From an uncultured Dehalococcoidia bacterium (GTDB lineage: Bacteria; Chloroflexota; Dehalococcoidia; Lucifugimonadales; UBA3495), in NCBI GenBank assembly GCA_958296385.1, contig OY282494.1, positions 2,021,537 to 2,085,536 on the forward strand: a DNA stretch of 64,000 nt. Reading direction: 5' to 3'. The translations under genes were made by a program, and so were the position numbers. Below the pieces are notes generated by a model that was not told where the DNA came from, did not search any database, and was given only the letters and a program-made list of their open reading frames with translations. Below, in pieces: positions 12,397-53,437 of the stretch (its first letter is position 1; each line of letters opens with the position of its first letter).

Positions 12397-13167
12397 ATGT
12401 ACATGGTTTTCCTCAACGAATCCGGCAAAACCGGCGCCGGGGACAACGACCCGGCCCAGCTCCATTACCTCCACACCGGCCTGCTCGTTCACGAGAACCA
12501 GTACATTTCGATGTCGGGTGAATACGATGCCCTCTTTCGCCGGCACTTTGGCGCCCGCCCCCGCTCGCCCGGCGTACCCGCCGAACTGGATACCGACGCC
12601 ATCTACAACGGCGCCGCCCCCTTTGAGTCCTGGGAACCCGAACAGCGGGCTGAGCTGTTGCAGGATTGCTTCAACATCCTGATTCGCCGCGAAACCCCCC
12701 TGCTCGTTTCCTACATCGACAAAGCCGAGTTCCAGAACGCCGCCCAATCCGAATCCAACTCCCTGGCCGGCCACGACGACCCCAGCAAGCTGGCCTTTGG
12801 ACGGTTCCTGCTGGCCCTGACCATGTTCCTTGACGAGAACGTGATGTCGCAGATGAACCCGGACGACATCATGGACTCCACCTGGGCGGTCAACGACTAC
12901 GCGATGCTGATGGCCAGCGCCGATTCCGAATCCGTCAAGCGCGGCTTGACCGAATTCCTGAGCGACGAATCGGACACCGTAACGCCGTCCATGTACGACG
13001 ACATCCTGATTGCGCCCCCCGACAGTTCCGTAGGCGCCCAGCTGGTGTCCATGTGCGCCTACTTCATCCAGCGCTGGCTACAGCAGCCCGACATCCCCCA
13101 CAGCTACTTCGACGCCCTGCGCGACGGCCGGGTAATCCAGGTAATCTACCCCTACCAGTTTGACTAG
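12397..13167 (+). CDS. DUF3800-like protein
   Basis: A 256-residue protein from the ATG at 12397, six bases after a perfect AGGAGG. The opening MYMVFLNESGKTG has the layout of DUF3800 proteins, whose first strand usually reads YIDESG and supplies the first acidic residue of an RNase H-like fold. Here that Asp is Asn, while the Glu is kept. Further acidic clusters occur in the middle and C-terminal half (DNDPAQLHYL, MFLDENVMSQMNPDD). Some DUF3800 proteins sit in mobile or defence loci and are predicted nucleases. With the first Asp changed, activity is doubtful. The function is not known and the assignment is moderate. Confidence 0.5.
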   Translation: MYMVFLNESGKTGAGDNDPAQLHYLHTGLLVHENQYISMSGEYDALFRRHFGARPRSPGVPAELDTDAIYNGAAPFESWEPEQRAELLQDCFNILIRRETPLLVSYIDKAEFQNAAQSESNSLAGHDDPSKLAFGRFLLALTMFLDENVMSQMNPDDIMDSTWAVNDYAMLMASADSESVKRGLTEFLSDESDTVTPSMYDDILIAPPDSSVGAQLVSMCAYFIQRWLQQPDIPHSYFDALRDGRVIQVIYPYQFD

Positions 13168-13375: not shown

Positions 13376-14950
13376 ATGCCCCTGTTGATTCCAACCCGCC
13401 GCCCGCTGCTGCGCCTGCCCTTTGCGATCATCGCCGTCTGGCTGATTATCGCCTGCGGCAGCGCTGCGCCGGCGCCCACCGCATGGCCCGCCCTCACCTC
13501 ACCACCGCCGGCTACCGCAGTTTCCCCGGAATCCCCAACGGCAACCGCATCCGTCCCACCGGCAACGCCGTCAGCAACGCCGGAGCCGTATGACTCCAGC
13601 CGCAATATGTACCGCATCTGGGCGGCGCCGGGCCATCCGACTGACTTGACCCTGCTGGCCTTTGGCGATGCCGTTCAACGCGGCGACCGTTCGCAGGTGC
13701 CGGTAATCCTCGAGGCGATGCGGCTGCTGCACCCCACCATTGCGCCCGACGCCGTTGAAACCGTAGGCCGCATAACCGGCGGCGATTTTGACTTTGGCCT
13801 GCGCGAGTGGCGGGAGATGGGCGAGTGGCTGGGCCGCAATCTGGAATCCTACCCGCCGCCGCCGGATTACCCGGAGTGGAAAGTCCGGTTCCTATCGCAC
13901 ATCGACCCGGCGATGGCCGATTTGCTGCGGCCCGCCGTTGCTGATGCTCCGGCGAATCTACCCGTGAATCTGGTCGAAATAATGTGGGGCGGCGTGCGCG
14001 TTGACGGGATTCCCCCGCTGGAGAACCCGCCCCACATTCTGCCGGAGCGGGCTACCTGGCTGTGGCCCGACGACCGGGTTTTTGGCGTGTCCGTCAACGG
14101 CGAACACCGGGCCTACCCGCTGCGGATAATGAACGCCCACGAGCTGGCCAACGACGAGCTGGGCGGCAAACCAATCTCCCTGGTCTATTGAACCCTGTGC
14201 GGCACCGGAATCGTGTATTCCGGCATCGTCAACGGCGCAGCTACCACTTTTGGCACCTCCGGCCTGCTGTACCGCAGCAACAAGGTAATGTACGACCGCG
14301 CCACCCGCACCCTGTGGCACCAGTTCACCGGCGCGCCCATCATCGGCCCGCTGGCCGGCGCCGGCATCCGCCAGCCCCGTTTCCCGTCGGTAGTATCCAC
14401 CTGGGCCGAATGGCAAGCCGAGCACCCCGACACCACCGTAATATCCCGTGATACCGGCCTCTATCCCCCCGATTTCTACGTGCCGGAGAACCACCCCAAC
14501 GCCATCTACTACCGCTACTTCACCGACGACGAAACCATGTTCCCCGTCTGGCTGCGCAACCCCGAACTGGCCCCCAAGTCAGTAGTAATCGGAGTAGCCA
14601 TCGGCAACACCGCCAAAGCCCACCCCATCGACGCCCTGCGCCAGTCCCGCGTAATCAACGACACCATAGGCGGCGTGAACATCGTAATAACAGCCTCCCC
14701 CAAAACCCGCTCCGCCAGAGTATATCAAAGCAACGAATTAACCTTTACCGCCAGCAACGACGGCCCGGACGCCGCCGCCCCCGCCATGCTGATTGACCAG
14801 ACCGGCGCCGGTTGGCAAGTAACCGAGGAATCCCTAACCAGCGCCGACAGCAGCGCCAACGCTTTGCCCCGCCTTACATCCCAAACATCCTTCTGGTTCG
14901 GCTGGTACCAATACCACCCCGACACCACAATATACCAAGCGGGGGATTAG
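13376..14950 (+). CDS. DUF3179 lipoprotein with in-frame UGA (candidate selenoprotein)
   Basis: One reading frame runs from the ATG at 13376 to the stop ending at 14950 (524 residues), interrupted only by TGA at 14189-14191 (codon 272). The N-terminus has a lipoprotein signal with WLIIAC (Cys27), followed by a Pro/Thr-rich linker. The DUF3179 domain surrounds the TGA: GVSVNGEHRAYPLRIMNAHE before it, TFGTSGLLYRSNKVMYDR after it. In this family the central motif reads Y-C-x-L-C-G-T. Here it reads LVY-(TGA)-TLCGTG, so the TGA replaces the first Cys of CxxC, the classic place for selenocysteine. A SECIS-like hairpin follows at 14205-14223. The frame after the TGA stays open and conserved for 253 codons. 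A nonsense mutation or a TGC-to-TGA sequencing error are the alternatives. The biochemical role of DUF3179 is unknown; a UxxC motif would suggest redox chemistry outside the membrane. Confidence 0.8.
14205..14223 (+). promoter_or_regulatory. Bacterial SECIS-like hairpin after the UGA codon
   Basis: CCGGAAT pairs perfectly with ATTCCGG around a 5-base loop CGTGT. The loop begins 20 bases after the TGA and has G as its second base. Bacterial SECIS elements bound by SelB are expected to have a short stem, a small apical loop with G in the first two positions, and a loop about 16-37 bases after the UGA, all of which hold here. The hairpin lies within the coding sequence, as it must in bacteria. 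Confidence 0.6.
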
Positions 14951-15032: not shown

Positions 15033-15185
15033 ATGGCGCTCGCCCGTGCTTATCGCCACGATGTCCGGCCCGGATTGCGGCTCCGAGATAGTGCGGGGCG
15101 CCCCCAATGGCATGGGGGCGCCTGTAACGATACCGCGCGGCTATCGCCTAGAGGCGTCCGCCGCCGCCGGATACGCGTTCGTTGA
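15033..15185 (+). CDS. Possible 50-residue ORF with a strong ribosome binding site
   Basis: An ATG at 15033 follows GGAGGTGAG with ideal spacing and a TATGTA -10-like element about 40 bases upstream, so an expression signal is present. The predicted 50-residue product is very Arg-rich (ends GVRRRRIRVR), matches nothing recognised, and its last 38 bases overlap the end of the NHL gene on the other strand. It may be a truncated remnant whose start region survived. Weak support only. Confidence 0.25.
   Translation: MALARAYRHDVRPGLRLRDSAGRPQWHGGACNDTARLSPRGVRRRRIRVR
15097..15122. repeat. Perfect 10-bp inverted repeat beyond the NHL gene
   Basis: GGCGCCCCCA and TGGGGGCGCC flank a 6-base loop, about 26 bases beyond the NHL stop codon on the minus strand. 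It may act as a transcription end or mRNA-stabilising hairpin. There is no T-run, so it is not a classical intrinsic terminator. Confidence 0.45.
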
Positions 15186-16236
15186 CGCCGTAGAACACCG
15201 CGTCCTGCTTGTGGAATACCTGGATGCGGGAGCGGGCGGTTTCCACCACGAAAACCCGGCCCTCGTCGTCGCACTCCACCGCAATAGGCCCCCAGAACTG
15301 CTTTTCCCGATCCAGGCCCTGGGCGATTTTGCGCTCCTCCCACATTTCCGGGTTGGCGTCCAGCTTGCCCATCCCCCACTGCGATATGGTGCCTTCGCCG
15401 TAAGTCATCCCGGCGTAAGCCCCGTTGGGGTGGAAAATCTGCATCCGGTCGTTGTTCCAGTCGGCAACGTAAATGGTGCCCTCGGTGTCCACCGCCACGT
15501 CGGTAGGGCGGTTGAACTGGCCGGGGCCGTCGCCGGTTTCGCCAAAGGCCATCAGGAACTCACCGTCGGCGGTGAACTTCTGGATGCGGTCGTTGCGCCA
15601 GTCGGCCACGTACACGTTGCCGGCCTGGTCAACGTCAATGCCAAAAGGCATATTGAACTGGCCGGGGCCGCTGCCAAACTCGCCCCACTGCCCGATGTAA
15701 TCGCCGTCTTTGGTCAGCATCTGCACCCGGTGGTTGTTGGAATCCACCAGATAAAGCCGCCCGTCGGGGCCAAAGACCAGGCCGCTGGGATTGTCCCACT
15801 CCCCGTCGCCCGTGCCGGGCCGCTGCCACTTGGCAAGATACTCCCCGTCGGGAGAGTAGATGCTGATGCGATCCAGATTCTCGTCGGCCAGATAAACGTT
15901 CTCGTCCGGCCCAACGGTGATGGCCGTCGGCCAGATGATGGCGCCGTCGGTGGCCACCGCCTCGCCGTCGCCCTGCTCAAACACCCCTTTGGCAAACTCG
16001 CTGATGAACTCCTCGTCAACGGTGCACATCGTAATGCGCTTGCCGTCCGGCCGGTAATCGTAAGAGCGGTTGGCAACGTACATCACGTTGCCCTCGCCCC
16101 GGGCCATTGCGGTAGGGTTGCGGAAGCCGGGGCCGGAGAACTCGGCGCGCCCGATGGTATGGCTGTACTGGAGCGAAATCTCCAGCGTGGGCAGCCCGGT
16201 CTGTTGGGCGCCGGGCTGTTGGGTCATTATAGTCAT
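15148..16236 (-). CDS. NHL-repeat beta-propeller protein
   Basis: A 362-residue protein made of about six NHL blades, seen as recurring phrases: NPSGLVFGPDGRLYLVDSNN, then MPFGIDVDQAGNVYVADWRN, then RPTDVAVDTEGTIYVADWNN. Each is followed by a D/NRIQxF strand and a G-x-GPGQF loop. No signal peptide is present, so it is probably cytosolic. The start at 16236 has GGAGGA ahead. NHL propellers bind ligands or act as peptidyl-glycine or hydrolase-like domains; no catalytic residues can be assigned. It is the first of a minus-strand group with the DUF1501 and DUF1800 genes. Confidence 0.8.
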   Translation of the reverse strand: MTIMTQQPGAQQTGLPTLEISLQYSHTIGRAEFSGPGFRNPTAMARGEGNVMYVANRSYDYRPDGKRITMCTVDEEFISEFAKGVFEQGDGEAVATDGAIIWPTAITVGPDENVYLADENLDRISIYSPDGEYLAKWQRPGTGDGEWDNPSGLVFGPDGRLYLVDSNNHRVQMLTKDGDYIGQWGEFGSGPGQFNMPFGIDVDQAGNVYVADWRNDRIQKFTADGEFLMAFGETGDGPGQFNRPTDVAVDTEGTIYVADWNNDRMQIFHPNGAYAGMTYGEGTISQWGMGKLDANPEMWEERKIAQGLDREKQFWGPIAVECDDEGRVFVVETARSRIQVFHKQDAVFYGVNERVSGGGGRL

Positions 16237-28797: not shown

Positions 28798-29226
28798 TTA
28801 CCGTAGGCCAACATCCCGCATCGTTACGCCCGGCGTTGGCGCATTGGCCAAGCGGCTATCGCACGTTAGCAGCGTTGCGTTGTAGGTTTGGGCTACTGCA
28901 ACGTATAGCGCATCATACGCACTCACGTTGTGACGATATTGCCACGCCGTTCGGATGATGGTTTGGTGTGCAACGCGTTCAACATCCCAGGCGGCCAAGT
29001 CGTCGAGTATCGCCAACGCCTCCGCCTCGGTCAGATTTCCTCGCGACACTTCAGAGCGCAATACGGATAGCACTTCGGCATCCAGCAGTTGAGGCGCAAT
29101 CACCCGGGCATCCGCTATTAATTCGGCTACCAGCAATCCCACCGGCGTCCGCCGCAGGTATTCATAGGCCGCCGATGCGTCTATGACATACGGTTCAGGC
29201 GCATCTCCATTTGCCGCCGCCGTCAT
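28798..29226 (-). CDS. VapC-like PIN toxin, coupled to the RM gene
   Basis: A 142-residue PIN-domain protein: YVIDASAAYEYLRR with the first Asp, PQLLDAEVLSVLR with the conserved Glu, HNVSAYDALYVAVAQ with the third Asp, and LLTCDSRLANAP with the fourth. This is the classical VapC arrangement, an endoribonuclease usually cutting tRNA or rRNA. Its ATG overlaps the stop of the type IIG-like gene by four bases (ATGA), so it is translationally coupled to a restriction-modification protein rather than to a VapB. Confidence 0.82.
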   Translation of the reverse strand: MTAAANGDAPEPYVIDASAAYEYLRRTPVGLLVAELIADARVIAPQLLDAEVLSVLRSEVSRGNLTEAEALAILDDLAAWDVERVAHQTIIRTAWQYRHNVSAYDALYVAVAQTYNATLLTCDSRLANAPTPGVTMRDVGLR

Positions 29227-32200
29227 TGCCGCTGCCCTTGATCTATTACCGCCATTTCCCGCTCGCGTTCTGCCCGCGCCTCGTGAATCAGCGTTGCGGC
29301 GTCAATGCCGAGAAAGGCTTGCGGGCGTGCTTGTCCGGGCGTGGGTTGCTGTATGCCTTGCCGGATGAACAGCTCTTTGACTACCATCTCGATGCAACGG
29401 CCTATGTTGGACTCCCGCAGCCAACCCCGCAGATCTTTCCGGGCTATGGCTACACTCAAACGGCTGCCTCGCTGCTCCCTCAACTCCGCCAGCCGCTCCG
29501 CCGCCTGCTCCGTCGCTATCTCTCCCTGCCATGCCAATTCCCGATGCAGCGACTCGCCAGCGTCAAACTCCGGTATCGCCAACTTCCAGAGATGCTTGTG
29601 CAAATCACGCGCCCCGAACTGTCCTTTGTTCATCAACGGCGTTACTGCTTGATACATCGCATCGCTGTTTATGATGGCCAGCAGGTAATGGGCTTCCCGA
29701 ATATCTTTGCAGGTAACCCAATATAGTTTGGTGTCAATGATGGCATCAGTATCATCAATTACCGCCGCCGTTGGCTGACCATTTCCGGTATAAACTATCC
29801 GCACTGGCCGGCTATGCTGATTGCCTTGCCATTCCAGTTGCGTTGACATTTCACGATGATAGTCCAACCGTTCCAGCAAGTTCAGCTTTGTACTCCTTTG
29901 CCGTTTAGATTCCCACAGCTGGCTAACCGTCTGCCACCGTTCCCGCATCCGCCATTCCAACCCGCCCAGACGGATGCCGCCCGGCCCGTCAGCATCCAAC
30001 GGTATCTCGTATTCCCCGCGTTTCACCGGCAAAACGGCTTTGAGCGGTTCCAGCGTGGCATACGGAACCACCGTTTCGCCCAGATGCACGTCATAAACGT
30101 GCGACTCGTCAACGGTTTGCCCGGTAATCGCATCCAGCTTCAACTCGTTCCAGGGCCGCTTGTCCTGCGAACCCCGGCGCGGGTTCACCGTAATCGTCTG
30201 GCCGGCTTGGATAGACGTCTGGCTTTCCGTTTCCTGCACAAAGAACAGGCAGCGCGGCACGATTGACGCTCCCTGCCGGGTATAGTCAGCGTAAGGCGAT
30301 TCGCCGGCGAGCGAGGTATCCGTTATACCGGCTACTACCCGCCGCACATCGGACGTTCCAGTCGGGCCTTGCCAGCGTTCTACCGTCCTGGCCAGCGCCG
30401 TCCCCTCGGCGTTCTCGCCCTTGCGTTTCGCAAAGACCACGCAGGAGGCTACCGGAAAGAAATTGTTAGGTTCCAGCTGTTCCAAATCCCACGCCGCCTT
30501 GTAAGCGAAATCCATCGCCAGCGTGCGCCCAACAATCCGGTTCCGTCCCCGGCCCGACGCCTTTGATTCCCACGCCCCGGTGCGCCATTTGGCGTACTGG
30601 CCCGATTGCAGGGCGCTGTGCGGCAGCACCATCCCGATTGCGCCGCCGTCTTTCAGATACAGGTCAACGCTGCGGGCAAAGAACAGCCCGGCCACGTCCT
30701 GGTGCGTGGCATACCGCCCGCCCTGCCAGATGCCGTAAAGGTTGCGGCTTTGCGCCTCCAGTTCCGTCCGCAGGATGCTGGCGGTGTTGCGGTAGTTCAG
30801 CCACGGCGGGTTGCCGATAATGACGTCAACTTTGTTGCGGCTCAGCACCACCGGCCGCACCATGTTGCGGGTGTAGTAGGCCCAGATGTGGTTGCGCCCC
30901 GCCCGGTGCAGCATCGCCATCGTCGCGGCAGCCTGTTCCAGCTGCTGCCGCTCCGCCACGTCGGTAACCTCTCGGTCGTCCATCGCCAGCATCGGGTCGG
31001 CGCCCTTGGCGATAGCGTCGGCGATGTCCGACAGCAGGGCGTCAAAGGTATCGGCCCGCTCCACCAGGGACATTGGAAACTCGAGGGTAGGACTGCCCAG
31101 GTCGGTTTCCCGGGTTTCGATAGTCACTGAGTTGACGGCGAACAAATCCCCGGTGCGGTAACGCAGTTGCAGGGCGTCGCCCAGGTAGATGGGCGCGGAT
31201 ATTTCGGTGTTGTAATCCGCTGCCGCGCTGATGGCCTCCCGCGCCGCAAAGGCCCAGGCCGCCCGCGCCAGATGCACCGCCGCCGGATGCACGTCAATGC
31301 CCAGCACCGCCGCCCGCAGCCGGTCCAGAATCTCTTTGGGTTCCAGATCCGACTCCCGCGCCGCCGCCAGAAACCGGCCCACCGCCGCCACGATGAAAGT
31401 GCCGGAGCCGCAGGACGGGTCTAACACCCGCTGCTCCAGCGGGTCGTCGATCAGCTCGACGGCCATTGCGTCGGCCAGCCATTGGGGGGTGTAGTATTCG
31501 CCCAACTGCCGCCGCTCGTCGGCCGGGATGACGGTTTGATAGAGGATGGCGGCAATATCGGCCGGCGCGTCGCGCCAGTCAAACCGGGACACCCGCGCCG
31601 CCAGCTGCCGGATGAACCCCGCGCCGCCGGCAACCTCCACCGGCCAGGTAAAAAAGTCCGACTCCACGATGCCGCTCAAGCCGGTGTCGCTTTTCAGCCG
31701 CCGCCCCTGCAGCAAATCCACAGCCTCCCGCTCCGCCAAATCCGGCAGGTTGATGCCAAAAGACGCCTGCACCGCCATACCGATGACGGCGCTGAGATAG
31801 GTATGCCGGATAAACAAATCGTCCAGCTCGTCCGGCGTGCCGGCGACTTCGCCCAGCGCCGCCCGCAGCAAGTCCTCCCACAGCCGCCGCTTAACGCGAA
31901 TCGTATCCAGCCCGCCGTTCCGCTTGTACAGCGCCGTCAGGGTAGCAAAATCCTGATTGCTTTCTCGCCGCGCGTCGCCAAACTCCCGCTGCAAGTTCTC
32001 CGCCGTCGGCGCAACGTCCACCGCCCGCGCCTCAAACACGTAATCCCGCAGCCACTCGTAAAGCCGCAGCCCGCCGGCTGGGGTTTCCAGCGTGAACGAC
32101 CGCGAGCCGAGAACATCCACCGCCCCATCGCCAATGCGCCGCAAAACCCAGCGCTTGCCGTCGGTCAGCACCCCATTGCGCACGCCGCGCCCGGCCGTCA

Positions 32201-32504
32201 AAGCGTCGGTCAGATAGCCGTCCAGCTGCGCGACGTGCTGCGGGTCAACCACGCCGCCGCCGCCGTAAAGATTGCGCTTGAACTCAAAGAAAGTATCCCG
32301 CGCGCGTAAGTCAACCCGCCCGGAGAACCCGTCCGCCGGCGATTCCTCCTGATCCACCTCGTCAACCGCCGCCAGCCCGGTTTGGGTGATGAAAACCCAC
32401 ACGGCGGTGCGAATGTCCGCCTCCGAACTTCCCCCGTCGTGCCGGCGCAAAATCCCCGCTGCCGGCCCGGAATAAACATCGCCGCTGTCCTGTTGCCTGC
32501 TCAT
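29223..32504 (-). CDS. Type IIG-like restriction-modification fusion (N6-adenine methylase with N-terminal nuclease)
   Basis: A 1093-residue protein. The N-terminal region has RVDLRARDTFFEFKRN (about residues 62-77), a D-x(n)-E-x-K signature of a PD-(D/E)XK nuclease. A helical region is followed by a methyltransferase core: LGEYYTPQWLAD, VLDPSCGSGTFIV (about 360-373, SAM-binding motif I) and IIGNPPWLNY (about 563-572, catalytic motif IV of gamma-type N6-adenine methylases, Eco57I-like). The C-terminal 500 residues look like a target-recognition region (NSDAMYQAVTPLMNKGQFGA). One chain would thus modify and cut DNA. It is divergent from a second DNA methyltransferase gene and coupled to a PIN toxin. 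The recognition sequence cannot be predicted. Confidence 0.85.
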   Translation of the reverse strand: MSRQQDSGDVYSGPAAGILRRHDGGSSEADIRTAVWVFITQTGLAAVDEVDQEESPADGFSGRVDLRARDTFFEFKRNLYGGGGVVDPQHVAQLDGYLTDALTAGRGVRNGVLTDGKRWVLRRIGDGAVDVLGSRSFTLETPAGGLRLYEWLRDYVFEARAVDVAPTAENLQREFGDARRESNQDFATLTALYKRNGGLDTIRVKRRLWEDLLRAALGEVAGTPDELDDLFIRHTYLSAVIGMAVQASFGINLPDLAEREAVDLLQGRRLKSDTGLSGIVESDFFTWPVEVAGGAGFIRQLAARVSRFDWRDAPADIAAILYQTVIPADERRQLGEYYTPQWLADAMAVELIDDPLEQRVLDPSCGSGTFIVAAVGRFLAAARESDLEPKEILDRLRAAVLGIDVHPAAVHLARAAWAFAAREAISAAADYNTEISAPIYLGDALQLRYRTGDLFAVNSVTIETRETDLGSPTLEFPMSLVERADTFDALLSDIADAIAKGADPMLAMDDREVTDVAERQQLEQAAATMAMLHRAGRNHIWAYYTRNMVRPVVLSRNKVDVIIGNPPWLNYRNTASILRTELEAQSRNLYGIWQGGRYATHQDVAGLFFARSVDLYLKDGGAIGMVLPHSALQSGQYAKWRTGAWESKASGRGRNRIVGRTLAMDFAYKAAWDLEQLEPNNFFPVASCVVFAKRKGENAEGTALARTVERWQGPTGTSDVRRVVAGITDTSLAGESPYADYTRQGASIVPRCLFFVQETESQTSIQAGQTITVNPRRGSQDKRPWNELKLDAITGQTVDESHVYDVHLGETVVPYATLEPLKAVLPVKRGEYEIPLDADGPGGIRLGGLEWRMRERWQTVSQLWESKRQRSTKLNLLERLDYHREMSTQLEWQGNQHSRPVRIVYTGNGQPTAAVIDDTDAIIDTKLYWVTCKDIREAHYLLAIINSDAMYQAVTPLMNKGQFGARDLHKHLWKLAIPEFDAGESLHRELAWQGEIATEQAAERLAELREQRGSRLSVAIARKDLRGWLRESNIGRCIEMVVKELFIRQGIQQPTPGQARPQAFLGIDAATLIHEARAEREREMAVIDQGQRQ

Positions 32505-40325: not shown

Positions 40326-40350
40326 AAGGCAGCAACGGCGCTAGCAGCGA

Positions 40351-40938
40351 TTAGCGGGCGCCAATCTGCGCGCGCATCGGGTTGCCAAAAAGCTGTTCCA
40401 GCGGCAAAGCAAACCCCGGTATCGCCGGCGTAGTAAGCGTATCCCCGCGCGTCAACACCGCCCGGTCAACGTAATCAGAACCGGATAATTCCAGTATGGT
40501 AATACTGTCGTTCACCGGGTCAATAATCCAATACTCCGGCACCCCGGCGCCAGCATACCAACCCCGTTTCATCACCAAATCCCGGTTGCGGTCCGATGAT
40601 AGTACTTCAACCACCACCTCGGGGATGCCCTCCATAAAGCCGCCGCGCGTCAGATGCAGATTCTCGTAGCGCACGTAGGTAATATCCGGCGTCGGCGCGT
40701 ACAGCTCCGAAATCGCCAACCCGATGTTAGAGAACCCCAGCCCCGGCGCCGGATGCAACGCCCGCGTGAAAAAATTAATAGCCCCGACCAGAAAATCAAT
40801 CAGCAGCTGGTGTTCGATGGTAGCCGGCGGCATTTGATACAACTCCCCATTGACCAATTCCCACACCCCGCCATCGGTTTCGTCCATAGCGCGGTATTCG
40901 GCCAGCGTAATTTTAGTTCCGTGCTGTACGGTAGTCAT
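40351..40938 (-). CDS. Uma2 array member 1 (type A)
   Basis: A 195-residue Uma2 protein. Type A is defined here by the start MTTVQHGTKITLAEYRAM and the phrase ELYAPTPDITYVRYENLHLT. The core has PDITYV (Asp), VVVEVLSSDRNRDLVMKRGW (Glu and Lys) and GVPEYWIIDPVNDSITILEL, the positions of a PD-(D/E)XK-type site. Position about 55-75 (TIEHQLLIDFLVGAINFFTR) differs strongly from other members. It is the last of six in the transcription order, 25 bases ahead of cobD. The ATG is at 40938 behind GGAGG. Confidence 0.85.
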   Translation of the reverse strand: MTTVQHGTKITLAEYRAMDETDGGVWELVNGELYQMPPATIEHQLLIDFLVGAINFFTRALHPAPGLGFSNIGLAISELYAPTPDITYVRYENLHLTRGGFMEGIPEVVVEVLSSDRNRDLVMKRGWYAGAGVPEYWIIDPVNDSITILELSGSDYVDRAVLTRGDTLTTPAIPGFALPLEQLFGNPMRAQIGAR

Positions 40939-40975
40939 CGCCCTAATGCCTCCGTTAGTGTAGCGACGGCAGCGG

Positions 40976-41560
40976 TTAGCTGATGAGAGTCTGCTGGCGC
41001 ATCGGCTCGCCAAAAAGCTGTTCCAGCTGAAACGCAAACCCCGGTATCGCCGGCGTAGTAAGCGTGTCGTTACGCGTCAAAACCGCCCGCTCCACGTAAT
41101 CTGAACCGGACAGTTCCAAGATGGTTATAGTTTCGTTAACCGGGTCCATAATCCAGTACTCCGGCACCCCGGCATCGGCGTACCAGCCCCGTTTCATCAC
41201 CAAATCCCGCCGGCGGTCCGAGGATAATACTTCAACCACCAAGTCAGGAGCGCCTTCAATGAGGTTGCGGCGCAGCAGATGCGCCCGTTCCGCCCGCACA
41301 TACGTCAAGTCGGGTATGAACATCCGAAACTCGGACAGCGCCACGCCAACCCCCGGCAGGGTTATCCCCATCCGCGGGCTTGTGGTAATCAGGTAAGCGT
41401 CAATCAGTTGGCAAAGCAGCTTGATAAGGTACTGGTGATCCAATATCGGTGGCGGCATTTCGTAAAGTTCTCCATCGCACAGTTCCCACAGCCCCTCCAG
41501 CGTGTCAATGGCCATGTACTGGGCCACCGTCATTTTGGCCCCGCGCCGTGTGGTAGTCAT
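40976..41560 (-). CDS. Uma2 array member 2 (type B)
   Basis: A 194-residue Uma2 protein of type B: start MTTTRRGAKMTVAQYMAI, then ELCDGELYEMPPP and LSEFRMFIPDLTYVRAERAH. From about residue 85 to the end it is identical in translation to member 4, while residues 53-80 differ (LDHQYLIKLLCQLIDAYLIT against LEHQCLISLLSQLINAYLLT). The gene is one half of a 1247-bp duplication unit. The acidic Asp, E-V-L-S strand and Lys are all kept. Confidence 0.85.
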   Translation of the reverse strand: MTTTRRGAKMTVAQYMAIDTLEGLWELCDGELYEMPPPILDHQYLIKLLCQLIDAYLITTSPRMGITLPGVGVALSEFRMFIPDLTYVRAERAHLLRRNLIEGAPDLVVEVLSSDRRRDLVMKRGWYADAGVPEYWIMDPVNETITILELSGSDYVERAVLTRNDTLTTPAIPGFAFQLEQLFGEPMRQQTLIS

Positions 41561-41597
41561 CGCCTTGATACCTCCGTTTTGTCCAGCGTCGCTGCGG

Positions 41598-42185
41598 TTA
41601 GCGGTCGCTAATCTGCGCGCGCATCGGGTTGCCAAAAAGCTGTTCCAGCGGCAATGCAAACCCTGGTATCGCCAACGTGGTAAGCGTATCACTCCGGCCC
41701 AACACCGCCCGCTCCACGTAATCGGAACCGGACAGTTCCAGTATGGTAATCGTGTCGTTCACCGGGTCAATAATCCAGTATTCCGGCACCCCTGCGCCAG
41801 CATACCACCCCCGTTTCAGCACCAAATCCCGCTGGCGGTCCGATGACAGCGCCTCAACCACCAGGTCAGGAACGCCCTCCATAAAGCCGCCGCGCGTCAG
41901 ATGCAGGTTCTCGTAGCGCACGTAAGTAATGTCCGGCGTCGGCGCGTACAGCTCCGAAATCGCCAAACCGATGTTGGTGAACGCCAGCCCCGGCGCCGGC
42001 GACAGGCTCTCCATCAGATTGTTAATCATCCGGGCCAGGAAATCGATCAGGAATTGATGTTCGGCGGTGGCCGGCGGCATTTGATACAACTCCCCATTGA
42101 CCAATTCCCACACCCCGCCATCGGTTTCGTCCATAGCGCGGTATTCGGCCAGCGTGATTTTAGTTCCGTGCTGTACGGTAGTCAT
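41598..42185 (-). CDS. Uma2 array member 3 (type A)
   Basis: A 195-residue type A member, lying exactly 1247 bases from member 1 and very like it outside the 55-75 region (AEHQFLIDFLARMINNLMES). Two small departures stand out: the catalytic-strand phrase reads LVVEALSSDRQRDLVLKRGW (Val to Ala after the Glu, Met to Leu before the Lys), and TLTTLAIPGF replaces TLTTPAIPGF. The key Asp, Glu and Lys remain. Confidence 0.85.
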   Translation of the reverse strand: MTTVQHGTKITLAEYRAMDETDGGVWELVNGELYQMPPATAEHQFLIDFLARMINNLMESLSPAPGLAFTNIGLAISELYAPTPDITYVRYENLHLTRGGFMEGVPDLVVEALSSDRQRDLVLKRGWYAGAGVPEYWIIDPVNDTITILELSGSDYVERAVLGRSDTLTTLAIPGFALPLEQLFGNPMRAQISDR

Positions 42186-42222
42186 CGCCCTAATGCCTCC
42201 GTTAGTGTAGCGACGGCAGCGG

Positions 42223-42807
42223 TTAGCTGATGAGAGTCTGCTGGCGCATCGGCTCGCCAAAAAGCTGTTCCAGCTGAAACGCAAACCCCGGTATCGCCGG
42301 CGTAGTAAGCGTGTCGTTACGCGTCAAAACCGCCCGTTCCACGTAATCAGAACCGGACAGTTCCAGGATGGTTATAGTTTCGTTAACCGGGTCCATAATC
42401 CAGTACTCCGGCACCCCGGCATCGGCGTACCAGCCCCGTTTCATAACCAAATCCCGTCGGCGGTCCGAGGATAATACTTCAACCACCAAGTCAGGAGCGC
42501 CTTCAATGAGGTTGCGGCGCAGCAGATGCGCCCGTTCCGCCCGCACATACGTCAAGTCGGGTATGAACATCCGAAACTCGGAAAGTGCCACGCCAACCCC
42601 CGGCAGGGCTATCCCCATCCGCGGGGTGGTGGTAAGCAGGTAAGCGTTGATCAGCTGGGAAAGCAGACTGATCAGGCACTGGTGTTCCAAGTTCGGTGGT
42701 GGCATTTCGTAAAGTTCTCCATCGCACAGTTCCCACAGCCCCTCGAGCGTATCGATGGCCATATACTCGGCCACCGTCATTTTGGCCCCGCGCCGTATGG
42801 TAGTCAT
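42223..42807 (-). CDS. Uma2 array member 4 (type B)
   Basis: A 194-residue type B member starting MTTIRRGAKMTVAEYMAI. It lies exactly 1247 bases from member 2 and shares an identical C-terminal half, ending FGEPMRQQTLIS. The two differ mainly in residues 53-80. The flanking intergenic sequence (start GCCTCCGTTAGTGTAGCG on the plus strand) is also shared with member 2. Confidence 0.85.
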   Translation of the reverse strand: MTTIRRGAKMTVAEYMAIDTLEGLWELCDGELYEMPPPNLEHQCLISLLSQLINAYLLTTTPRMGIALPGVGVALSEFRMFIPDLTYVRAERAHLLRRNLIEGAPDLVVEVLSSDRRRDLVMKRGWYADAGVPEYWIMDPVNETITILELSGSDYVERAVLTRNDTLTTPAIPGFAFQLEQLFGEPMRQQTLIS

Positions 42808-42862
42808 CGCCCCATTGCCTCCATTTGTCTAGATAGCGCCGCTGCGGTTAGCGGGTGAGAGT

Positions 42863-43432
42863 TTAATGGCGCATCGGGTCGCCAAAAAGCTGTTCCAGCG
42901 GCAGCGCAAACCCCGGTATCGCCGGCGTAGTAAGCGTATCCCGACGCGTCAAAACCGCCCGCTCCACGTAATCGGAACCGGACAGTTCCAGCATCGTTAT
43001 GGTTTCGTTAACCGGATCCATAATCCAGTACTCCGGCACCCCGGCATCGGCATACCAACCCCGTTTCATGACCAAATCCCGCCGGCGGTTTAAGGATAAT
43101 ACTTCAACCACCAAATCGGGAGCGCCTGCAATGAGGTTGCCGCGCACCAGATGTGCCCGTTCCGCCCGCACATACGTCAAATCGGGTATGAACATCCGAA
43201 ACTCGGACAAGGCAACGCCAACCCCCTGCATTACTTTCCCCAATCGCGGATTGGTGGTGAGCAGGTAAGCTCTAATCAGCCAGTAAAGCGAACCGATAAG
43301 GTCCTGATGATCCACGTTCGGTGGCGGCATTTCGTAAAGTTCTCCATCGCACAGTTCCCACAGCCCCTCGAGCGTGTCGATGGCCATATACTCGGCCACC
43401 GTCATTTTGGCCCCGCGCCGTGTAGTAGTCAT
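42863..43432 (-). CDS. Uma2 array member 5 (type B, shortened end)
   Basis: A 189-residue type B member, ending at FGDPMRH, five residues before the others. The variable segment is VDHQDLIGSLYWLIRAYLLT, followed by NPRLGKVMQGVGVALSEF. The Asp/Glu/Lys core is retained, but the motif reads VVEVLSLNRRRDLVMKRG, with LN for the usual SD. The gap to member 6 is 37 bases. Confidence 0.85.
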   Translation of the reverse strand: MTTTRRGAKMTVAEYMAIDTLEGLWELCDGELYEMPPPNVDHQDLIGSLYWLIRAYLLTTNPRLGKVMQGVGVALSEFRMFIPDLTYVRAERAHLVRGNLIAGAPDLVVEVLSLNRRRDLVMKRGWYADAGVPEYWIMDPVNETITMLELSGSDYVERAVLTRRDTLTTPAIPGFALPLEQLFGDPMRH

Positions 43433-43469
43433 CGCCCTGATACCTCCGTTTTGTCCAGCGTCGCTACGT

Positions 43470-44054
43470 TTAGCGGGCGCGAATCCGCTGGCGTGCCGGG
43501 GCGCCAAAAAGCTGTTCGAGCGGCAAAGCAAACCCCGGTATCGCCGGCGTGGTAAGCGTATCGCTCCGGCCCAACACCGCCCGTTCAACGTAATCGGAAC
43601 CGGACAGTTCCAATATGGTAATAGTGTCGTTCACCGGGTCAATAATCCAGTATTCCGGCACCCCGGCGGCGGCGTACCAACCCCGTTTCATCACCAAATC
43701 CCGCCGGCGGTCCGATGACAATACTTCAACCAGCAAGTCGGGAGCGCCGTAAATGAGGTTGCGATGCACCAGATGCTCTCGTTCCGCCCGCACAAACGCC
43801 AGGTCGGGTATGAACATCCGGAACTCGGACAGCGCCACGCCAACCCCCGGCAGGGTTATCCCCAACTGCGGGCTGGTGGTAATCAGGTAAGCGTCAATCA
43901 GCTGGCAAAGCAGCTTGATAAGGTACTGGTGTTCCACGTTTGGTGGCGGCATTTCGTAAAGCTCTCCATCGCACAGTTCCCACAGCCCCTCCAGCGTGTC
44001 AATGGCCATGTACTCCGCCACCGTCATTTTGGCCCCGCGCCGTGTGGTAGTCAT
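43470..44054 (-). CDS. Uma2 array member 6 (type B/A hybrid)
   Basis: A 194-residue member, first of the array in transcription order and 49 bases after cbiB. The N-terminal two thirds are type B (MTTTRRGAKMTVAEYMAI, LSEFRMFIPDLAFVRAEREH), while the end (IIDPVNDTITILELSGSDYV, then AVLGRSDTLTTPAIPGFALP) matches type A, especially member 3. It thus looks like a recombinant of the two types. The Asp and Glu positions are kept (PDLAFV, LLVEVLSSDRRRD). Confidence 0.85.
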   Translation of the reverse strand: MTTTRRGAKMTVAEYMAIDTLEGLWELCDGELYEMPPPNVEHQYLIKLLCQLIDAYLITTSPQLGITLPGVGVALSEFRMFIPDLAFVRAEREHLVHRNLIYGAPDLLVEVLSSDRRRDLVMKRGWYAAAGVPEYWIIDPVNDTITILELSGSDYVERAVLGRSDTLTTPAIPGFALPLEQLFGAPARQRIRAR

Positions 44055-49788: not shown

Positions 49789-49894
49789 CAAGATTTCAGA
49801 GGCATATTCGCTGGGAGCGGTCAGCACCCTGGTCGGTATCGTCACCCGACGCCGGCGCATCCCGGGCTCTTGCTCACTCGTCCGCGCAGTGCAG

Positions 49895-50096
49895 CCAGAA
49901 CACACCTGCGGCAGGTCTCCTGGCTCATGGCTGCAAACGACGTTCCTCCGCCTTCCCACCCTAAATCGGGCAGTGGCTTACGGCCAGCATCCTAACGGAC
50001 ACCAACCGGGAGGGCGTCTCACCAATTACAGTGGCGGGACCGCACCGGATTCACACCGGATTTCCTTTTCAACCCGCAAACCACCATCCAAGATTA
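49895..50096 (-). promoter_or_regulatory. Cobalamin riboswitch (B12 aptamer)
   Basis: Read leftward, the conserved blocks come in order: GAAAAGGAAATCCGGTG, GAATCCGGTGCGGTCCC, then GCCACTGTAA (the B12 box), then, about 100 bases on, GAGCCAGGAGACCTGCC, the closing conserved segment. These are the hallmarks of adenosylcobalamin-class riboswitches. With B12 bound, the downstream terminator would close and the cob operon would be switched off. The boundaries are approximate. Confidence 0.92.
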
Positions 50097-50161
50097 TCGG
50101 AACAGCAGCAAGCGAGCCACCAACAGGCATTTTCAATCCTGATTCAATTGTTAACGCCCCA

Positions 50162-51430: not shown

Positions 51431-53437
51431 ATGACTAATAACCGCTGGGTCCGCAACAGCCTCATCTACCTGCTGATTATCATTGGCGTTATAGTCATCT
51501 TCTATACGTTCATCCCCAGCTTCGGCAGCAGCGACACTCGTTCCGTTACCGAAGTCCTCAATCAGGCCAGCACCGGCCAGATTGACGAGATTATCGTGGA
51601 TGGCGAGAAGCTTACCGTCATCCCCAACGTCCGTACCGGCGGCGAAGCCACCAAGTACACCAGCCGCATCGGTAAGAACACCGACCTGATTCAGCTGCTC
51701 TCCGAAACCGGCGGCCTGAACACCACTGCCGCGCCTAACGTCACCTACAAGGGTTCCAGCGGCTTCGGCAGCGTCTTCGGCATCCTGCTCAACTTCCTCC
51801 CCCTCATCTTCTTCGGCGGCCTCATCCTCCTGATGATGCGCCAGGCCCAGGGCTCCAACAACCAGACCATGAGCTTTGGCCGCAGCCGCGCCCGCATGAT
51901 GCCCTTCAACCGCCCCTCCGTAACCTTTAACGACGTCGCCGGCGTTGACGAGGCCAAGGCGGAGCTTGAGGAAGTCGTTGACTTCCTGAAATACCCGGAG
52001 CGGTTCCTCTCGCTGGGCGCCCGTATCCCCAAGGGCGTCCTGCTGGTCGGCCCCCCCGGCACCGGCAAAACCCTGCTGGCCCGCGCCGTTGCTGGCGAGG
52101 CCGGCGTGCCATTCTTTCACATCTCCGGCAGCGAATTCGTCGAGATGTTCGTCGGCGTCGGCGCCGCCCGCGTCCGCGACCTCTTTGAGCAGGCCAAGCG
52201 CAACTCCCCCTGTATCCTGTTTGTCGATGAGATTGACGCCGTAGGACGCCATCGCGGCGCCGGACTCGGCGGCGGCCACGACGAGCGCGAGCAAACCCTC
52301 AACCAGATTCTCGTCGAGATGGACGGCTTTGAGACCAACACCAACATCATCGTCATCGCCGCCACCAACCGCCCCGACATCCTCGACCCCGCCCTGCTGC
52401 GCCCCGGCCGCTTTGACCGCCGCGTCACCCTCGACCTCCCCGATGTCGTCGGCCGCGCCGCCATCCTCAAAGTCCACGCCGCCGGCAAACCCCTGGCCCG
52501 CGAAATCAACGTAGAAGTCCTCGCCCGCGAAACCCCGGGTTTCAGCGGCGCCGACCTCTCCAACCTGGTCAACGAAGCCGCCCTCCTCGCCGCCCGCAAA
52601 AACCAGTCCAGCATTTTTATGGCCGACTTTGAGGAAGCCATCGAGCGCGTCATCGCTGGCCCGGAACGCAAGAGCCGCGTCATCAACCAGCGCGAGAAAG
52701 AAATGACCGCCTACCACGAGGCCGGCCACGCCCTCGTCGCCTGGCTCCTCCCCCACGCCGACCGCGTCCACAAAATCAGCATCGTCTCCCGCGGCAACAT
52801 GGGCGGCCACACCACCCTCCTCCCCGAAGAAGACCGCTACCTCTGGACCAAAAATCAGTTCCAGGATATGCTCGGCGTCATGATGGGCGGCCGCGTCGCC
52901 GAAGAACTAATCTTTGACGAAGTAACCACCGGCGCCAGCAACGACATTGAGCGCGCCACCAAAACCGCCCTCGGCATGATTAAACGCTACGGAATGTCCG
53001 CCAGCCTCGGCCCCCGCACCTTTGGCAAGCGCGAAGAGCTGGTGTTCCTGGGTCGCGAAATCAGCGAAGAACGCGATTACGGCGATAAGATTGCCGAAGA
53101 GATTGACGTCGAAGTGCGCCATCTCATCACCAGCGCCTACCGTCAGGCCCAGCAGCTGCTGATTGACTACAAGCCCAAGCTGGTTCAAATCGCCGAATAT
53201 CTAATCGAGCACGAAGCCATCTCCGGCGAAGCCCTCAACGGTCTGTTCAACGACGACCCGCCCGGCATTGAGCCCGAACCGGCCCGGCCCACCCCGGCCC
53301 CATCGCCCTACGCCCCGCCGGCCCCCCCCGCCTCCCAAAGCGACCCCCTGCCCACCCCAACCCCCGCCCCCGCGCCATCATTCAGCAGCACAACCACCAC
53401 CGACCCCACCACCGCCAACCCGCCGGCGGCCGACTGA
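51431..53437 (+). CDS. ftsH: ATP-dependent membrane zinc metalloprotease FtsH
   Basis: A 668-residue membrane AAA+ protease. Two membrane helices (about 10-28 and 114-136) frame a small extracytoplasmic domain. The AAA domain has [14 protein letters not shown] (Walker A, 207-214), [11 protein letters not shown] (Walker B), [10 protein letters not shown] and the arginine fingers in [10 protein letters not shown]. The protease domain has HEAGH (429-433) with a later conserved Asp in DIERAT. The C-terminal 70 residues are a Pro/Thr-rich disordered tail. It degrades misfolded membrane and regulatory proteins. hflK and hflC, whose products form its regulator, lie just downstream. AGGAG precedes the ATG. 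Confidence 0.96.

Follow-up and report, generated by a model that had tools for sequence, protein, structure and literature searches.

The DUF3179 family has already been listed among the selenoprotein families (UxxC/T) in reviews of 2022 and 2026, which credit the DUF3179 selenoprotein to Zhang & Gladyshev 2007, NAR 35:4952 (PMC9312934, PMC13188914). The reviewed protein belongs to the same Pfam family, PF11376, and has selenocysteine (Sec) at the same UxxC position as the gene described here; the entry gives a name and a motif, and the review passages that carry it are silent on Chloroflexota, fold, duplication and function (PMC9312934, PMC13188914). No function for DUF3179 was found in the literature searched, and searches of Pfam, NCBIfam and PDB sequences returned no function beyond DUF3179 itself. 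The gene under study lies in a 64,000-nucleotide stretch of DNA from an uncultured Dehalococcoidia bacterium, the whole of which is termed the window. It is read here as encoding a lipid-anchored, extracytoplasmic selenoprotein in which UGA 272 would be decoded as Sec by the genome's own system; the selenoprotein reading has a probability of about 0.88. The case is less novel than it was scored in an earlier note on this DNA, because DUF3179 was already listed as a selenoprotein family; the present analysis contributes strong evidence from evolution, together with an initial clue to the fold. Compared with the reviewed entry, many of the members collected here are of Dehalococcoidia/SAR202 type, and they usually carry an N-terminal helical domain and a membrane anchor.

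The earlier note had described a 525-codon frame interrupted once, by a TGA in place of the first motif cysteine, and this was confirmed (Table 1). The TGA stands in the context LVY-U-TLCGTG and takes the position of the first motif Cys of DUF3179 (Y-U-T-L-C). A profile search matched PF11376 to residues 210-517, a span that extends to either side of the TGA, with E = 9e-75 and a score of 252 bits against a curated cut-off of 27, and the U/CxxC motif was present. A gene of this kind would be cut short by annotation pipelines that end a frame at UGA, in this case after 271 residues. The protein is predicted to be anchored to the membrane outside the cytoplasm; several orthologues have a similar lipobox, and others have a membrane anchor without the Cys. 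An AlphaFold2 model (mean pLDDT 91) consists of the helical domain, residues 74-189, followed by DUF3179. The C-terminal half alone matched profile positions 22-89 of PF11376, the repeat-1 part (E 1.7e-16), and repeats 1 and 2 were aligned by hhalign with a probability of 99.6%. On this comparison, DUF3179 is an internal duplication in which the U/CxxC motif is found in repeat 1 only. Besides UxxC, which is strictly conserved in alignment A1, the same alignment contains strictly conserved RAYP, TSG, RSNKVMYDR (RSNKVMYDRxT), HPxTT and FWFxW-type motifs.

Table 1. Positions in the window of the predicted features of the DUF3179 gene
Feature	Position	Strand	Details and basis
Putative DUF3179 selenoprotein gene	13376..14950	+	524 residues, one predicted UGA-encoded Sec, TAG stop
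Signal peptide with lipobox ...WLIIA-C27	13376..13456	+	predicted lipid attachment at Cys27; translation, by eye
N-terminal helical domain	13595..13942	+	residues 74-189; AlphaFold2 model m2abc43cbe82d, model helices 5-120
DUF3179 repeat 1, with U-x-x-C	14060..14464	+	residues 229-363; Rieske-like in model
UGA codon, predicted Sec272	14189..14191	+	translation, homologue alignment
Cys275	14198..14200	+	second (putative resolving) Cys of UxxC, invariant in alignment A1
Putative bacterial SECIS hairpin	14205..14223	+	7-bp stem, 5-nt loop CGUGU; folding, covariation
DUF3179 repeat 2, without UxxC	14567..14947	+	residues 398-524, homologous to repeat 1; profile, hhalign

The host genome, a single 3.3-Mb contig estimated to be 99.95% complete, was found to contain the genes for Sec insertion, a check that the earlier note had proposed. 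Relatives with names assign this genome to the Dehalococcoidia/SAR202-type Chloroflexota. The products of selA (537 bits, cut-off 268), selB (357 bits, cut-off 242) and selD (374 bits, cut-off 125) all scored above their curated cut-offs, and a tRNA-Sec (66 bits, cut-off 47) was assigned the anticodon TCA by ARAGORN. This SelA/SelB/SelC/SelD system, guided by the hairpin that follows UGA 272, would translate that codon as Sec, and we infer that selenium is inserted at residue 272. The host selD gene (L020, C1:1766127-1767047) itself has one in-frame UGA (TELSHCAG-U-AAKL); an in-frame UGA in selD is a known trait of many selenium-using bacteria. Among the matches listed, selA was above the cut-off in 39 of the 42 genomes with a UGA copy versus 215 of the 351 other genomes of the class search, a co-occurrence with p 1e-5 by a statistic that ignores kinship among genomes; the three UGA-copy genomes without selA above the cut-off all have selB.

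Alignment of the family, also suggested in the earlier note, placed either Cys or UGA at the column of residue 272 throughout, and the UGA was seen to recur in related genomes. At this column TGA was present at 59 homologous places and TGC or TGT at 48, while the other 10 rows were mostly secondary alignments onto the C-terminal repeat; with duplicates removed, there were 55 distinct UGA sequences and 46 Cys sequences. All 14 of the nearest relatives (56-60% identical) read ISLVY-UGA-TLCGTGIVYSG. Besides this gene, the host genome has two DUF3179 copies, a UGA type and a Cys type. The family also occurs in Haloferax volcanii, whose DUF3179 protein is a Cys homologue. On a quick tree, used for this count only, there were at least 4 changes between Sec and Cys (starred branches), and 7 by parsimony. 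The values of dN/dS downstream of the UGA were 0.07-0.30 in 12 close pairs, which indicates purifying selection, and those upstream were similar. A read-through search also returned DUF3179 matches that contain an in-frame TAG rather than TGA (L070 in G259:C42, L073 in G097:C73, and G492:C27); the residue at the Sec site is Cys in L070 and L073.

The hairpin CCGGAAT-CGTGT-ATTCCGG was found where the earlier note had placed it, with its loop 20 nt after the TGA and G as the second loop base. The bacterial SECIS rules set out in one review passage are a loop of 3-9 nt, a stem of 4-16 bp, a distance of 16-37 nt from the UGA, a G within the first two loop bases and an MFE of at most -7.5 kcal/mol (PMC13188914). 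The hairpin falls within all of them, with its 5-nt loop, 7 bp and 20 nt, and the folding energy of the 55 nt containing it was -16.1 kcal/mol. As a single sequence its folding energy is not unusual (z = -0.5), and a 7-bp stem arises at this site in 1.6% of synonymous recodings. In the UGA copies the 7-bp stem lies at +17 to +35 from the U of UGA, with the loop CGUGU or CGGGU and with stem variants that include CCGGAAU/AUUCCGG, CGGGCAU/AUGCCCG, GCGCGAU/AUCGCGC and GUGGAAU/AUUCCAC; in a minority of distant UGA copies the stem is shifted by one to two bases. Across 46 distinct UGA sequences 278 of 322 stem pairs were formed, versus 184.5 +/- 6.2 expected (maximum 209 in 2000 trials) from synonymous recodings based on codon usage within the family, and the Cys homologues formed 138 of 322; the counted sequences are related, so that the counts are inflated and the significance figures are upper limits. 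In a set of 20 sequences the covariation score was 0.451 against 0.113 when shuffled, both-side changes occurred in 4 of the 7 stem pairs (22 cells versus 6.7 in shuffles), and covariation was far lower in every slid register of the stem. As judged from these alignments, the hairpin is absent from the Cys copies and carries compensatory changes in the UGA copies, and these changes span several clades.

A lone frame with a lone hairpin would be weak evidence, because single-TGA frames are common in the window, where 47 such open frames pass a loose filter at its high GC content, and the hairpin energy is ordinary. On this background of frequent chance TGAs, the gene could be of the Cys type, its TGA having come from faulty sequencing or from mutation of a pseudogene. 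The probability of this is vanishingly small: 55 distinct homologues, drawn from many assemblies, have UGA at the column of residue 272, dN/dS is low after the UGA and the hairpin is conserved in the UGA copies only. The recurrence of the same UGA in independent assemblies of relatives makes a read error not credible, and the low dN/dS, with the UGA in 55 distinct homologues, bears out the earlier view that this is no old pseudogene. It is also very improbable that the UGA is read as another amino acid under an altered code, or passed by unprogrammed read-through. Read-through exists in bacteria, although nothing specific supports it here, and against both readings stand the long frames of the window that end in TGA (29223-32504 and 51431-53437), the finding that true homologues without UGA at the column all have Cys there, and the SECIS covariation together with the complete set of sel genes. 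The data leave practically no room for a read error, gene decay or an altered genetic code. The case for the selenoprotein stands above chance because 55 distinct homologues share the position of the UGA and the stem covaries, and the earlier proposal of a selenoprotein is upheld by the sel genes, the UGA/Cys column and the covarying hairpin. Covariation and selection data from Dehalococcoidia/SAR202-type bacteria now support the selenoprotein status of this widespread, unstudied family.

The DUF3179 protein is probably a redox enzyme, a selenol/thiol oxidoreductase, to judge from its motif. Sec often replaces Cys in CxxC redox motifs to give UxxC, and Sec272 and Cys275 would form such a U-x-x-C redox pair: the selenolate would attack or reduce an oxidised substrate, Cys275 would resolve the product as an Se-S bond, and a partner would re-reduce that bond. 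The argument for redox catalysis comes from the UxxC motif and the Sec/Cys exchange, because the neighbouring genes show no shared pathway. Among 112 neighbours of 20 loci no shared operon was found around DUF3179; the types that recurred were limited to transport, MFS, methyltransferase and three AhpC/TSA-type proteins, and the immediately adjacent genes vary across the family. At one Chloroflexota locus (L066, genome G027) two convergent UGA DUF3179 genes have thioredoxin-like AhpC/TSA genes on both flanks, a weak hint of extracytoplasmic thiol chemistry. An alternative is that the protein, though a selenoprotein, uses UxxC to bind a metal ion such as copper or mercury and serves as a metal carrier or sensor rather than as a redox enzyme. 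A predicted anchored extracytoplasmic protein with a CxxC-type motif would suit this role, and in five relatives of one clade genes read from sequence as copper-type P-ATPase-like and glutaredoxin-like lie a few kb upstream. Note, however, that this gene arrangement is seen only within a single clade of closely related members, that Sec is used mostly in redox motifs, and that the large strictly conserved set (RSNKVMYDRxT, HPxTT, FWFxW) better fits a substrate site; metal binding is accordingly considered unlikely.

Several other features of the window were recorded. Directly upstream of DUF3179, at 12397-13167 (+), is a conserved orphan protein, 63-70% identical in relatives, that has no Pfam or NCBIfam match; it has the same position next to DUF3179 in several relatives (L106, L107, L110, L111, L115 and L116). 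The segment 13181-13353, just upstream of the DUF3179 gene, contains three 26-nt direct repeats and a 44-nt inverted repeat of the ATTCTGAGCGCAGCGAAGAATCTC type, 91% complementary with the arms 24 nt apart, and is possibly a REP-like element or terminator. Downstream, at 15148-16236 (-), is an NHL beta-propeller, partly ScyF-like, with relatives near DUF3179 also at L106, L107, L109 and L110. On the minus strand, 40344-43762 consists of six tandem copies of a 622-625-bp unit that are 80-98% alike, and two tested copies encode Uma2-type putative endonucleases (PF05685). A cobalamin riboswitch (88.9 bits) at 49893-50125 (-) was the only Rfam match in the window.

The structural model offers a first view of the fold. 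For residues 172-277 of the whole model the best structural matches were Rieske ferredoxins and NirD, with Z up to 6.3 and about 95 residues superposed at an rmsd of 2.5-3.3. Residues 341-438, the second repeat, also matched NirD, with Z 6.2. When repeat 1 was folded alone (pLDDT 84), the first 46 rows were Rieske or NirD, with Z up to 6.1. Taken over the whole and single-domain models, VIA Z was 5-6.3 with nearly all top rows Rieske or NirD, and as a Z below 8 may reflect a common arrangement, the likeness of the predicted fold to Rieske/NirD domains is suggestive. Foldseek gave no significant match for the whole model; for repeat 1 alone its first 11 rows were Rieske oxygenases, the best E of 0.038 being not significant (probability 0.87). 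A weak profile alignment of DUF3179 with 28 Rieske domains placed YCTLCGTG on the CxH loop and aligned the TG..P segments (p 0.011; 1 of 150 column permutations scored as high), and a Pfam search extended to E 10 gave no Rieske hit. The UxxC motif seems to sit where Rieske domains have their first cluster-ligand loop (CxH). One tentative interpretation of the model, held at somewhat below even odds, is that DUF3179 is a duplicated, cluster-free Rieske-type domain whose first Fe-S ligand loop has turned into a Sec-Cys redox pair. Both the Rieske-like reading and the internal duplication appear unreported in the literature searched. If the Rieske-like fold holds, it would be the first structural idea for the role of DUF3179 and a clear-cut example of a selenol/thiol catalyst built on a scaffold of electron transfer.

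In comparison with known systems, the models of repeats 1 and 2 align with Rieske/NirD domains (the ISP fold) over about 90-100 residues at Z about 6. Rieske domains have the cluster ligands CxH and CxxH, whereas DUF3179 has UxxC in place of CxH, with the first His replaced, and at the place of CxxH alignment A1 has TSG and no conserved Cys/His pair; with CxxH missing and the first His replaced, no Rieske cluster is expected even if the fold is shared. Thioredoxin-like UxxC selenoproteins have the UxxC redox pair in common with DUF3179 but differ in that the DUF3179 model is mostly beta strands and has no thioredoxin among its matches. Were the Rieske reading true, DUF3179 would represent a selenoprotein fold class outside the thioredoxin type, with thiol/selenol chemistry on a scaffold that elsewhere carries an iron-sulfur cluster.
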